NCBI GenBank assembly: GCA_014380365.1
Contig: JACMJZ010000012.1
Location: 372,001 to 436,000 of the forward strand
Reading direction: 5' to 3'
DNA length: 64,000 bases
Source of the DNA: Pyrinomonadaceae bacterium
Lineage (GTDB): Bacteria; Acidobacteriota; Blastocatellia; Pyrinomonadales; Pyrinomonadaceae
The position numbers were made by a program, and so were the translations under genes. The notes beneath the pieces were generated by a model that searched no databases, was not told the origin of the DNA, and was given only the letters and a program-made list of their open reading frames with translations. Below, piece after piece: positions 14,293 to 19,695 of this stretch (position 1 is its first letter; each line of letters starts with the position of its first letter).

Positions 14293-15114
14293 TTACATGC
14301 GGAACTTGTCACCGAGATAAAGTCGCCGGACTTCAGCATCTTCTGTCAAGTCGCGCGGAACGCCGGAAATAAAGATTTTACCGTCAGCCATAATGTAAGC
14401 GCGGTCGGTAACGCCCAACGTCTCGCGCACATTGTGGTCCGTTACCAGAATTCCGATCCTGCGATTGCGTAAATAAAGTATGACATTTTGAATGTCATCG
14501 ACAGCTTTTGGATCAATTCCGGCGAACGGTTCGTCGAGAAGAATAAACTGGGGGTCGGTCGCGAGCGCACGCGCGATTTCGGTTCGGCGTCGCTCTCCGC
14601 CCGAAAGCTCGTCGCCCCTCGTGTTGCGCACGTGGGCGATACCAAACTCCTCCAACAACTCTTCCAGTCTTGTCAGGCGCTCGCGTCTTCGGAGCCCCAT
14701 CGTCTCGAGCACTGCCAGGATATTTTGCGCCGCAGTCATCTTGCGAAAGATCGACGGCTCTTGTGGCAGATAACCAACGCCCAACCTGGCCCGTAGGTAC
14801 ATCGGCAACCTGGTAACGTCGCGATCACTCAGGCTTACCACCCCCGCATCAGGACGTTCAAGGCCAACGATCATGTAGAAGGTCGTCGTCTTCCCCGCGC
14901 CGTTTGCCCCCAGCAAGCCGACGACCTCGCCTCGTTCAACATGCAGACTGACATCATCAACTACTCGTCGTCCGCCGTAACTCTTTTGCAGGTGCGCACC
15001 CGCCAATGCAGTATCTGAGGGGTTTTGCGGGTGGCGTGTGGCAGGGGAGCTTTCGGCAACTAAAGTTTCTTTGGGACGCGCGGCGGTCTCTACATGTTCA
15101 GCATGTATTGTCAT
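14293..15114 (-). CDS. lptB: LPS export ABC transporter ATP-binding protein
   Basis: 273 residues; about 30 N-terminal residues exceed the family norm (about 241). Walker [17 protein letters not shown], signature [15 protein letters not shown], Walker [14 protein letters not shown] and H-loop TDHNVRE are all present, and the Q-loop [11 protein letters not shown] is of LptB type. LptB powers the extraction of lipopolysaccharide with LptFG. It lies between the lptC-like gene and rpoN, the standard place. No strong ribosome-binding site precedes the ATG, so a later start is possible. Confidence 0.95.
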
Positions 15115-15225: not shown

Positions 15226-17544
15226 TTATGGCTTCCTTACTTTGTGCACCGACCTAACGCGGCCCGGCGACTGTGGGCCTCTGCTGTCGTCGGCTGTCAC
15301 TCTACCGTCCTGCATATTGAGGGTCAAACGACCGCCTTCAGTGCTTCCCTTCTCCGCGTCTTCAACTCTTGCCGGATTGCCTTTGAGCACCGCAACTTTG
15401 CTAGCGGTGGTGTACTCGACCCAATCGCCCGTGCCTTTTCTGCCCGGCTGAGTGAGCACAACGCTTCGCTGGGCCACAGTCTTTTCGACTTCGCTCGAGT
15501 CCTTGCGAAGATAGACGTCCGCAACTCCGCCGGTAACCCTGTCGGTTTCCTGGCGAATGTCGACCTCACCTTCGTAGTGCAACGTGCGATTAGGATCGGA
15601 ATACGACATCGAGTTTGCTGTGGCGAACACCGGCACCACTGCGCTCCCGGCTCCTGTGTTTCGCGCGTTGTAGACCTGACTCTGCACGCGCCCGTTCGCA
15701 TCCATTTTCTTTTCGTTCATGTAGATCGTGAGTTTGTCGGCGCGAATGAAGTTGTCGTCCTGCCAGGCGCGCGCATTGCCGTTATAAATCGCCACGCCGC
15801 TGTCGCGATGAAACTCGCCTCGGTCGCTGACGATGTAAACAGGGCTCTTAACTTTTGAAAAAGGCACGGCCCCGTTTGTCTGTTCCTGGCTGTAATAGGT
15901 CGTCGCGGTTTTCCCCCGACTGTAGGAGACCTTGCTGGCCAGGTTGGAATCGAGTTCGATTGCTTTCGTCCGCGCGCGCGCGTCCCAGACAGTCGGCTCG
16001 CCGCCGCGCAGGCGAATCGTCTGGTCATCAGCGGTATATGAAATGTTATGAGCGATACCGTTGCGATCGTTCTCGTTAAACTTGGCATCGCCCTGCGCGT
16101 CGGTACGCTGGATGGCCTGTGTATCTTTGACAAAGACGGCAGTCATTTTCTGCGAGGTCAGAACGCGGGTTCCCCTATCCTGGACCTTTTGCACGGGCTC
16201 GATCACTGCCTTCGCCCCGCCGGTGGCGGCAAAGCTACGGGCGAGGTTCCCGGCTTCAAAGAAGTCGCAATCGATGCGCGGCGCCGTCAGCGTTTGGTTG
16301 TCAGCCTTTTCGTTCTTTACCACCGGTTCGACAAATAACTCGGCGTTGCCCACGGCTTCGGCCTTGTCGAGATCGCGACCATTCGTGCGCCAGATTAGTT
16401 TGACTGCATCCGCGGTGAGCCGCTTGTTAGTGGCTCGAGGGTCGCTGGCTTTGGATTTGGGCGCGGAGAGATTAATCACAGAGCGGCCTTCAGTTCGCAT
16501 CTGTTTCATCAAACTGCGCTCACCCTGCGCTTGAAACAAGACTTCAATCATGCTCGCCCCGGTTAGTTGCAAATCAGAATCCGAGTCCAGGGTTCTCGCC
16601 GACGCATCACGCATCGCATAGCCCTTCTCCAGTTGCTGATCCTTATCAAAAAAGAAATCCATGTCGGCGGACCTTACTTCAGCGGCGCGCCCTTCCTGCA
16701 TCGAGCGCAGATACGAGTTGCCGCGTATCTCCACCTTTTGCACCTGCTTCTTCTCGCTCAACGCTGCATAAAGGCTGTCGCCGCTCATGAGGTCGCGATC
16801 CTGTTCTGTCGTTACCCCACCCGAGAAAGATAGTTTCTTTCCTTCCTGCTCAAATAACGCGTGCGCTGCGCGGATGGTTACGGGACGCGCGCGCGATGAC
16901 GCCTTCGCCTTCGGATCCTTTAGCGCTTCGGGGGCCACCGTAATTTCAACATCTTTCTTGAGCTCCAGCTTCTTACTCTTCGACTCAACTACAGCGCCGG
17001 TTGAGTGGCCCGAAACGTTTTCGCGCTCGAAGGAAATCGCCGCATCTGTTTGCGCCACTTCGCTGTCCTTGATCGCGAAGTTATAGGCAATCGACTCCGT
17101 ATTTACCTTCAGGGCGTCCTTCGTTTCAATCTTGACGCTGCCCTGGAAAGTCAGAATGGAGTTAGCCTGATCGTAGATAGCTTTGTTGGCGCTAATTTGA
17201 TCCGGCTTATCGCCCTCGGAGGGATAAACGGAAAGATTGACTTGATCGAGCTCATGATGGCCGTCGGAGAAGGTGACGTCGCGCGCTGCGCGGATCCAAA
17301 GGTAAAGACGATCGCCCTTCATCATGCGCTGTTCGTAGCCTTCGATTACCCCGGTGATCTCCTTTGAGAGTTCCGGCGTTTCTGACTTGAGCCGGAACGG
17401 CGTGTTATTGCGCAGACGATAATAGGAGATCGCCACAAAGACGAGTGCGGCAATCAGAACCAGCACTGCGCCCGCGCGCGCTACGAGCGGAGCACGCGCA
17501 CGCAAGCCGATAGCGAAAGCTCGTTTTCTGTTGATCTCCTGCAT
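15226..17544 (-). CDS. lptC: LptC/OstA-like LPS export protein, very long
   Basis: About 772 residues from the ATG at 17542-17544; a GTG four codons earlier is equally in frame. A transmembrane anchor (AGAVLVLIAALVFVAISYY) is followed by an LptC-like segment (DRLYLWIRAARDVTFSDGHH, LDQVNLSVYP) and then several OstA-type beta-jellyroll repeats to the C-terminus, such as YSDPNRTLHYEGEVDIRQ and KGTGDWVEYTTASKVAVLKG. LptC is about 190 and LptA about 185 residues in E. coli, so this looks like one polypeptide giving LptC plus an extended LptA-like bridge. It sits before lptB. Confidence 0.85.
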   Translation of the reverse strand: MQEINRKRAFAIGLRARAPLVARAGAVLVLIAALVFVAISYYRLRNNTPFRLKSETPELSKEITGVIEGYEQRMMKGDRLYLWIRAARDVTFSDGHHELDQVNLSVYPSEGDKPDQISANKAIYDQANSILTFQGSVKIETKDALKVNTESIAYNFAIKDSEVAQTDAAISFERENVSGHSTGAVVESKSKKLELKKDVEITVAPEALKDPKAKASSRARPVTIRAAHALFEQEGKKLSFSGGVTTEQDRDLMSGDSLYAALSEKKQVQKVEIRGNSYLRSMQEGRAAEVRSADMDFFFDKDQQLEKGYAMRDASARTLDSDSDLQLTGASMIEVLFQAQGERSLMKQMRTEGRSVINLSAPKSKASDPRATNKRLTADAVKLIWRTNGRDLDKAEAVGNAELFVEPVVKNEKADNQTLTAPRIDCDFFEAGNLARSFAATGGAKAVIEPVQKVQDRGTRVLTSQKMTAVFVKDTQAIQRTDAQGDAKFNENDRNGIAHNISYTADDQTIRLRGGEPTVWDARARTKAIELDSNLASKVSYSRGKTATTYYSQEQTNGAVPFSKVKSPVYIVSDRGEFHRDSGVAIYNGNARAWQDDNFIRADKLTIYMNEKKMDANGRVQSQVYNARNTGAGSAVVPVFATANSMSYSDPNRTLHYEGEVDIRQETDRVTGGVADVYLRKDSSEVEKTVAQRSVVLTQPGRKGTGDWVEYTTASKVAVLKGNPARVEDAEKGSTEGGRLTLNMQDGRVTADDSRGPQSPGRVRSVHKVRKP

Positions 17545-17643
17545 AAGTACTACCACCGGTGACCGCGGACCGGCGACCGTTCAGTCGCGAACCTCGCGTG
17601 CGCTGCGGAGTCACCAATCATGGGTTGCCTCATCGGTCGCCCG

Positions 17644-18195
17644 TCATCGATCTTCCGTCGTCGCTCTTACATCCTGGACCGACAACTGCAAAAACGTTCC
17701 GCCGCCCCAGTTGCTGGTTTCAATCGTGTAAAGCCATGTCGATGCGGCCTTTCAAAACGTTCGCGTGTTCCGCGCCGTTCCACCAAATAGTCTCTAACGG
17801 ACGGCGCTGCGGTCCAGCGACAGTCATCTTCAGATGCCGTTGTCCAATTAAACGTGGTTCCGAGAGGATGCACAAGTGGCGGGCCTGAAAAATTGGCCGG
17901 GGATTGACGGCAGTCCCGGTCGTACCGTCCACGTCGTAGTCGCCATATACGAGGATTGGTCCCCAGCATCAATCGCCCGCAACAAACGCGCGACCGCCTC
18001 GCTCATCCCCAGCATGAGATATGGATCTTGAAGTTGATCGTGGGAAGCATTAAGAGAGTTTTGCGCGGAATGCTCATCGATGCAGTCGCGCGAAATGAGC
18101 AGCGATGCGACGACTGGGGAAACGCGCAAAACGCAAGCGAGCGCAGCGACTTGTTGAGCGTCCTGCTCGCGCCGAATCCAACGTTTGGAGTTCAT
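17644..18195 (-). pseudogene. recJ: recJ pseudogene: both ends kept, middle deleted, frameshifted
   Basis: The minus strand from 18195 begins like RecJ (SKRWIRREQDAQQVAALACV, then a DPYLMLGMSEAVARLLRAID stretch). After DAGDQ the reading frame breaks; one base later the catalytic motif YGDYDVDGTTGTAV continues in another frame. It then jumps straight to the RecJ C-terminal region (RHLKMTVAG, WWNGAEHANVLKGRIDM), breaks again at 17722, and ends FLQLSVQDVRATTEDR with TGA at 17644. The DHHA1 and most of the DHH domain, some 350-400 residues, are missing. RecJ is a 5'-3' single-strand DNA exonuclease. The position next to lptC fits a once-intact gene. Confidence 0.88.
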
Positions 18196-18233: not shown

Positions 18234-18560
18234 TTATTCAGCAAACCAGCCGTCTTCATCGAGTAGCTTAACACCAATACGCCGGCGGCCATCAAGTTGA
18301 TCAGTCCACGCGCCGTTGACTTCCGCGTCGAGCTCGCGCCCAAACGGAGGGGTCAATTTCACCCTGGCTCCGACTGCAACCTCGGCGTCGAGAATAATCG
18401 TAGCACCGCCGCGGCTGATCTTAATCGCATGTGCCTTAACGCTGAAGGACTCACCTGCCAGCGTTTTTCCCTCCACCTCGAGCGCAAACTCGACGGGCAC
18501 GCGGGGGTTGCGCGGCCGCTGGGAAGGCACAGTCGCACTCCGGGGATCTTTGTCATTCAT
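18234..18560 (-). CDS. PilZ domain protein
   Basis: 108 residues from the ATG at 18558-18560 (GTG three codons earlier possible). The PilZ fold is seen as RNPRVPVEFALEVEG, a strand pair, KISRGGATIILDAEVAVGAR (the D/NxSxxG-type motif is SRGG) and RRRIGVKLLDED. PilZ domains often bind cyclic di-GMP, but the leading RxxxR motif here is weak (RNPRVP), so binding is not certain. It is upstream of the recJ remnant. Confidence 0.85.
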   Translation of the reverse strand: MNDKDPRSATVPSQRPRNPRVPVEFALEVEGKTLAGESFSVKAHAIKISRGGATIILDAEVAVGARVKLTPPFGRELDAEVNGAWTDQLDGRRRIGVKLLDEDGWFAE

Positions 18561-18720
18561 TAAACTCACCGCCCTTTATGTTTAGCAATTTTATGAGTTG
18601 ACCCAATTCGGGCCGGGGAGGAAGAGGGGCAAGACCCAGTTTACCCGAAGCGGGAAAGCTTTTGGTAGCGGTTTTATTCTGGAACCATTGCGCGCCGCTT
18701 CCAGAGAAACGGCGTGTCAC

Positions 18721-18807: not shown

Positions 18808-19695
18808 TTACCCGGCGTCTGCGGTGATGTAACCGCCGAGCAAGGCGAAGATAATTGCAGCGCCTACTACCAAACGATAAACGACAAAAACGCCAGTGGA
18901 ATGCGTTCGCAGAAATCTCAGTAGAAACCAAATCGACGCGTAGCCCACCAAACCTGAAACGATGGTTGCCACGATCAGCGGAAGATAGGTTCCGTCCGGA
19001 AGCTTGTGTATTGCTTCCCGCAGTTCCAGCAATCCGCTGGCAGCAATTGCCGGAATGGATAGCAAAAATGAAAACCTTGCCGCTGTCTCGCGCGTGAGTC
19101 CGGCAAAGAGTCCGCCCATAATCGTGGATCCCGAACGGCTGGAGCCTGGGATCAACGCCAGCACCTGGGCAAAACCGACGGCCAGTGCGTCGCCAAGGCC
19201 CAGCTCGTTCATCGATCGCCCTCTCTTACCCACCCATTCAGCGAGAGCCAGCAGCAGTCCAACGACAATCATCATCGTCGCGATGACCCAAAGATTTTTC
19301 GTGAAGGTGCCTTCGATCTGTTTCTTAAAGACAAGACCGACCACTGCAACCGGAACTGAACCGATGATGACCAGCCATCCTAACCACGCTTCTGGGGAGA
19401 GCCGCCTACTTCCATCCGTCCGATTTTTTCCGGTGAGGATCGCAAGATGATCCCGCACAAACCCACGAGTGATGTTCGTGATATCTCGCGCGAAATAGAT
19501 CAGAACCGCGAGCAGCGTGCCGAGTTGAATCACAGCAATCGTTGCGGTTGTTTGCTCGGCTTTGAGCGTGGGCTCGATGAAGTTGTAAAGGCCAACGAGG
19601 CGTGCGGCAAAAACCAGGTGCGCGGTGGAGCTGACCGGAATGAATTCGGTTAATCCCTGGACGATGCCCAGGATAATTGCTTGAAAAATGGTCAT
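18808..19695 (-). CDS. uppP: Undecaprenyl-diphosphatase
   Basis: 295 residues with about eight membrane helices. The two BacA/UppP active-site motifs are present: QGLTEFIPVSSTAHLVF (E-rich motif, residues 13-29) and PGSSRSGSTIMGGLFAGLTR (PGxSRSG, about 180-199). The enzyme hydrolyses undecaprenyl diphosphate to recycle the lipid carrier for peptidoglycan and O-antigen. Monocistronic by appearance, flanked by repeats on both sides. Confidence 0.96.
   Translation of the reverse strand: MTIFQAIILGIVQGLTEFIPVSSTAHLVFAARLVGLYNFIEPTLKAEQTTATIAVIQLGTLLAVLIYFARDITNITRGFVRDHLAILTGKNRTDGSRRLSPEAWLGWLVIIGSVPVAVVGLVFKKQIEGTFTKNLWVIATMMIVVGLLLALAEWVGKRGRSMNELGLGDALAVGFAQVLALIPGSSRSGSTIMGGLFAGLTRETAARFSFLLSIPAIAASGLLELREAIHKLPDGTYLPLIVATIVSGLVGYASIWFLLRFLRTHSTGVFVVYRLVVGAAIIFALLGGYITADAG

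Follow-up and report, generated by a model that had tools for sequence, protein, structure and literature searches.

RecJ, an ssDNA exonuclease with DHH, DHHA1 and RecJ_OB domains (TIGR00644), is one of the recombination genes regarded as nearly ubiquitous (PMC1193525); mycobacteria and mollicutes lack it (Rocha et al. 2005, PMC1193525). Mycobacteria possess both RecBCD and AdnAB (PMC12192639). For Wolbachia, a neutralised ruvA has been described (PMC4224334), a case of a redundant recombination gene decaying in part of a clade. A literature search returned no publication joining RecJ, AddAB and Acidobacteria.

The window analysed here, a stretch of 64,000 nucleotides from a Pyrinomonadaceae genome, carries on its minus strand, at about 17661-18195, a recJ pseudogene with pilZ on one side and a fused lptC-lptA gene on the other. 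We interpret this feature as marking the loss of the RecJ 5'-3' ssDNA exonuclease in this particular lineage, with a probability of roughly 0.93 that covers the pseudogene and the loss and excludes the replacement step considered further below; lineage-specific gene loss is an already known type of event. As in the RecJ-less mycobacteria and mollicutes (PMC1193525), RecJ is gone and RecO is kept; in contrast to those groups, the loss in the window genus is recent and repeated, and its remnants can still be read. The decay in part of a clade also recalls ruvA of Wolbachia, although Wolbachia is a reduced endosymbiont whereas the window genome measures 5 Mb (PMC4224334).

A recJ remnant between pilZ and lptCA

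Six-frame reading placed the RecJ N-terminus (MNSKRWIRREQDAQQV...) at an ATG at position 18195 of the minus strand. After a first frame change the reading continues as VYGDYDVDGTTGTAV, which is directly continuous with NPRPIFQARHLCIL...ETIWWNGAEH, corresponding to the RecJ C-terminus; a second frame change then returns the original frame, yielding YTIETSNWGGGTFLQLSVQDVRA, such that the remnant consists of three frame segments. The N-terminal part (17907-18195, minus strand) covers RecJ residues 1 to ~97 and includes motif I (YGDYDVDG), while the C-terminal part (17661-17906, minus strand) covers residues ~486-570 with the RecJ_OB domain. Through nucleotide alignment to the intact recJ genes of three congeners (G006, G012 and G004), we mapped a deletion of 1167 bp, of equal length against G006 and G012, which removes 389 codons without altering the frame and joins codon ~98 to codon ~487. 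Its junction (17907-17912, minus strand) lies at a microhomology of ~5 bp, TGCCG, present on both sides. The first frameshift is a 1-bp deletion somewhere within 17958-17970, and the second, seen by both six-frame reading and alignment, a 1-bp insertion at ~17733 (17732-17734) that restores the original frame. The deleted codons contain DHH motif III and the DHHA1 GGH motif. Together, the in-frame deletion at short homology and the two single-base indels have cost the gene its catalytic core and disrupted its reading frame; the flanking genes remain intact.

Homology of the remnant to RecJ was evident from tblastn searches with the intact RecJ of G004 (572 aa), which matched residues 1-79, 80-135 (partly spurious beyond the deletion point), 485-543 and 538-572 at E values of ~1e-26 to 1e-30, excluding chance similarity. 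From the separate pieces, Pfam and NCBIfam models recovered RecJ_OB and positions 2-54 of TIGR00644, the latter at 20-22 bits compared with a curated cut-off of 396.9 bits. Both ends of the remnant are colinear with the RecJ of congeners at the syntenic site, but the lack of the DHH/DHHA1 core and the two frameshifts render it non-functional. These results bear out most of what an initial annotation, made from the sequence alone, had described: a clear RecJ N-terminus, a one-base shift followed by direct passage into the C-terminus and a further shift, and some 350-400 missing residues, for which alignment to congeners gives the exact value of 389. Of the extent it proposed, 17644-18195, the start holds, whereas homology stops at ~17661. 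The neighbour it named as lptC proves to be an lptC-lptA fusion.

Both flanking genes adjoin recJ in congeners too: upstream an intact PilZ-domain protein (18234-18569, minus strand), and downstream the intact LptC-LptA fusion (15226-17556, minus strand), in which a single protein of 776 aa unites LptC and LptA. Profile matches and congener synteny also assign lptB (14293-15114, minus strand) and uppP (18808-19695, minus strand) to this conserved block, whose gene order, rnj-SDR-uppP-pilZ-recJ-lptCA-lptB, is maintained throughout the genus. The nearest named public record for the locus is a Pyrinomonadaceae metagenome-assembled genome.

The initial annotation had reasoned that, were this the only recJ, the organism would lack a conserved nuclease, and had suggested searching the rest of the genome. 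Searches of the 95%-complete draft (4.98 Mb, 34 contigs) with TIGR00644 found no second RecJ, the remnant alone matching (E 4.8e-4). The sole other DHH-domain protein measures 326 aa, carries DHH and GGGH motifs and is NrnA-like; a diverged RecJ disguised as another DHH protein was rejected on this basis. A displaced second copy in the missing ~5% of the genome is conceivable in the strict sense only; congeners carry just one recJ, always at the window's syntenic position. The genome retains RecO, RecQ and a complete AddAB-like pair.

Repeated erosion of recJ within the genus

Comparison with close relatives, also proposed at the outset, identified recJ at this locus in nine congeners, eight of them with an intact, full-length gene (G003, G004, G005, G006, G011, G012, G014 and G015). 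In the ninth (G008; L060, 2941-4601) recJ is split into two neighbouring parts that lie in different frames (RecJ 7-184 and 190-569), possibly reflecting a frameshift or sequencing error. Five further congeners (G002, G007, G009, G010 and G013), which constitute a separate clade, have lost recJ at the locus. The interval between pilZ and lptCA, ~1.8 kb in genomes with intact recJ, is 677 bp in the window and 757, 386, 300 and 162 bp in G009, G007, G013 and G002, respectively. Sensitive tblastn searches detected remnants in all but one of the five, and their internal gaps differ: RecJ residues 1-92, 150-187 and 463-567 in G009, 4-83 and 490-541 in G007, 4-42 and 471-508 in G013, and 455-537 in G010; no significant remnant was detected at the G002 locus. 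The differing shapes of these gaps indicate that separate deletions struck one and the same gene.

A genus tree reconstructed from five proteins (2144 columns) grouped the window genome with the RecJ-positive G006, G012 and G004 (99/99), and the five RecJ-negative congeners as their own clade (100/100). Parsimony on this tree requires two changes of RecJ state, and forcing the RecJ-less genomes into one group was 34 log units worse (p-AU 0.0002). A single shared loss was therefore rejected, both by the tree and by the unlike gap shapes, implying at least two losses of recJ in the genus. Further, substitutions private to the window are spread evenly over codon positions (15/13/13, versus 18/17/38 on intact branches; Fisher p 0.049, from a small sample), which fits relaxed selection on recJ in the window lineage.

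This comparative evidence also bears on two other readings of the locus. Since the genome is known here from a draft assembly of 34 contigs rather than from raw reads, an assembly or base-calling artefact might conceal an intact recJ. We regard this as very improbable: misassembly does not produce point decay, whereas the remnant displays, besides its long deletion and the two indels, substitutions spread over codon positions; five separately assembled congeners also lack recJ at the syntenic site (four with differently shaped remnants), other independent assemblies have it intact there, and the remnant is embedded in a 530 kb contig with conserved synteny. Judged from these features of the sequence, a collapsed or mis-assembled region at the recJ locus appears very unlikely. 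Also very improbable is a functional mini-RecJ restricted to the N-terminal domain, as might be proposed from the unbroken 115-aa open reading frame at 17848-18195; this frame runs out of register past the frameshift, retains only motif I of the catalytic motifs, yields no Pfam domain, and shows the even codon-position substitutions noted above. A recJ pseudogene, with colinear, lesion-bearing remnants at the orthologous position and no intact copy elsewhere in the 95%-complete genome, is thus the reading we retain.

A second AddAB-like pair and its distribution

In the window genome, the primary AddAB-like pair resides on contig C2 and a second on contig C34 (L066:4778-11607). The latter comprises two overlapping reading frames, referred to here as secB (1091 aa) and secA (1185 aa); these are labels for this pair only, unrelated to the Sec export proteins. 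Like AddA of Bacillus subtilis AddAB, secA possesses UvrD helicase domains, a Walker A motif and a PDDEXK nuclease, while secB, like AddB, lacks Walker A (a dead helicase) and carries a PDDEXK nuclease (PF12705, 113 bits) and iron-sulphur cysteines (C-x2-C-x5-C). The closest solved structures are those of AddAB (3u44). Contrary to B. subtilis AddAB, the second pair forms a separate branch in a genome that has another AddAB-like pair besides, and scores far below the NCBIfam equivalog cut-offs (TIGR02785/TIGR02773; 258 versus 708 bits and 40 versus 904 bits); it is therefore named AddAB-like only, and predicted to be a helicase-nuclease. An AdnAB identity was rejected, as AdnAB requires Walker A motors in both subunits. 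In-frame stops were observed in open frames of this second pair, inside the PDDEXK_1 match, at L069 (G043) and L068 (G013) (1 TAG, 2 TGA), possibly representing decay, frame overlap or sequencing error.

The class is taken to be Blastocatellia on the strength of the family name Pyrinomonadaceae. Among 83 of its genomes, each at least 93% complete, seven lack RecJ (G000, G009, G013, G043, G103, G104 and G054) and seven possess the second pair (the first six of these, and G069). The pair thus occurs in 6/7 RecJ-negative compared with 1/76 RecJ-positive genomes, and within the genus in 5/6 RecJ-negative compared with 0/7 RecJ-positive genomes tested. The two exceptions are G054, which has neither, and G069, which keeps RecJ alongside the second pair closest to that of the window. 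The association has p ~1e-7 when genomes are counted, and p ~0.002-0.004 when lineages are counted (hypergeometric; three shared of four and four), uncorrected for the four families tested; it amounts to about three independent coincidences, found after trying those four families. PDDEXK_1 proteins covary with RecJ absence. RecQ and RecO were each rejected as covariates, neither varying with RecJ.

Beyond the class, 70 of the 81 genomes with a secB relative (~30-47% identity) also have RecJ, so that enzymes of the secAB type are compatible with RecJ and no general exclusion exists. Across these 327 genomes of other classes, where the RecJ-negative set is the complement of the listed matches, no association of the second pair with RecJ loss was found (Fisher p 0.15, with the trend reversed). 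For the phylum as a whole, no RecJ match at E<=1e-10 was obtained for 69/395 genomes. By genus, 52/212 are without any RecJ match; some may be diverged or fragmented, and the rest suggest frequent loss. Four genomes of one family (f6; G044, G052, G101 and G102) each encode two full-length RecJ-type proteins, of ~590-620 aa and ~770-800 aa.

In the secB tree, the sequences from the class group in one clade. Within it, the window copy has as its sister the G069 copy, from another genus (84% identity), and not those of the congeneric RecJ-negative clade. This placement suggests horizontal movement of the pair, which appears to have spread in this manner. Its GC content is modestly higher (59.8% versus 55-57%) with ordinary GC3, so composition does not show a recent transfer. 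No secB relative was identified in plasmids at E<=1e-20, and tblastx of the pair's flanks recovered only short linked fragments.

How recJ may have become dispensable

Other enzymes may have come to perform gap widening and end resection, so relaxing selection on recJ. The second AddAB-like pair could, with less certainty, be the factor that made RecJ dispensable in the class, in which case RecO, presumably together with RecFR, might load RecA on the 3' tails that the pair would make. That the pair took over the role of RecJ is possible but doubtful. For Blastocatellia, the tentative scenario would be one in which a mobile second AddAB-like pair provides 5'-strand resection and gap widening, with recJ dying at each arrival; arrivals accompanied by recJ death might be placed, equally provisionally, in the window lineage, a sister clade and a second family. 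Given the 70/81 co-occurrence elsewhere and the many RecJ-less genomes that lack secAB, we consider the loss established and put forward replacement as a hypothesis only.

The main competing account, to which we give about an even chance, is plain drift, with recJ only mildly useful in these lineages and the second pair coincidental. RecJ is dispensable in Escherichia coli and B. subtilis, RecJ is widely missing in the phylum, most RecJ-less genomes outside the class also lack the second pair (52/63), and G054 has lost RecJ without it. Set against drift is the overlap within the class, 6/7 by genome and 3/4 by loss lineage, with the lineage-level p value given above before correction. Alternatively, an ancestor may have had both RecJ and the second pair, with descendants retaining either one, as the single class-wide secB clade and the persistence of both in G069 could indicate; this seems unlikely, as the pair is missing in 76/83 genomes, requiring many losses, and the window secB is nearest to G069 of another genus instead of to congeners. 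Replacement by the second pair we place between these two accounts.

With two helicase-nuclease systems, and with RecO and no RecJ, the window genome has a make-up similar to that of mycobacteria (RecBCD and AdnAB; PMC12192639), although its second system is AddAB-like, with one motor subunit, and not AdnAB; we take this resemblance as a lead and not as a test. A genus with at least two losses of recJ, remnants eroded to different degrees, and RecJ-positive close relatives represents a natural experiment, in which the covarying second AddAB-like pair offers a specific candidate for what replaces RecJ. Should the take-over prove true, it would parallel the situation in mycobacteria, which lack RecJ and have two helicase-nucleases.
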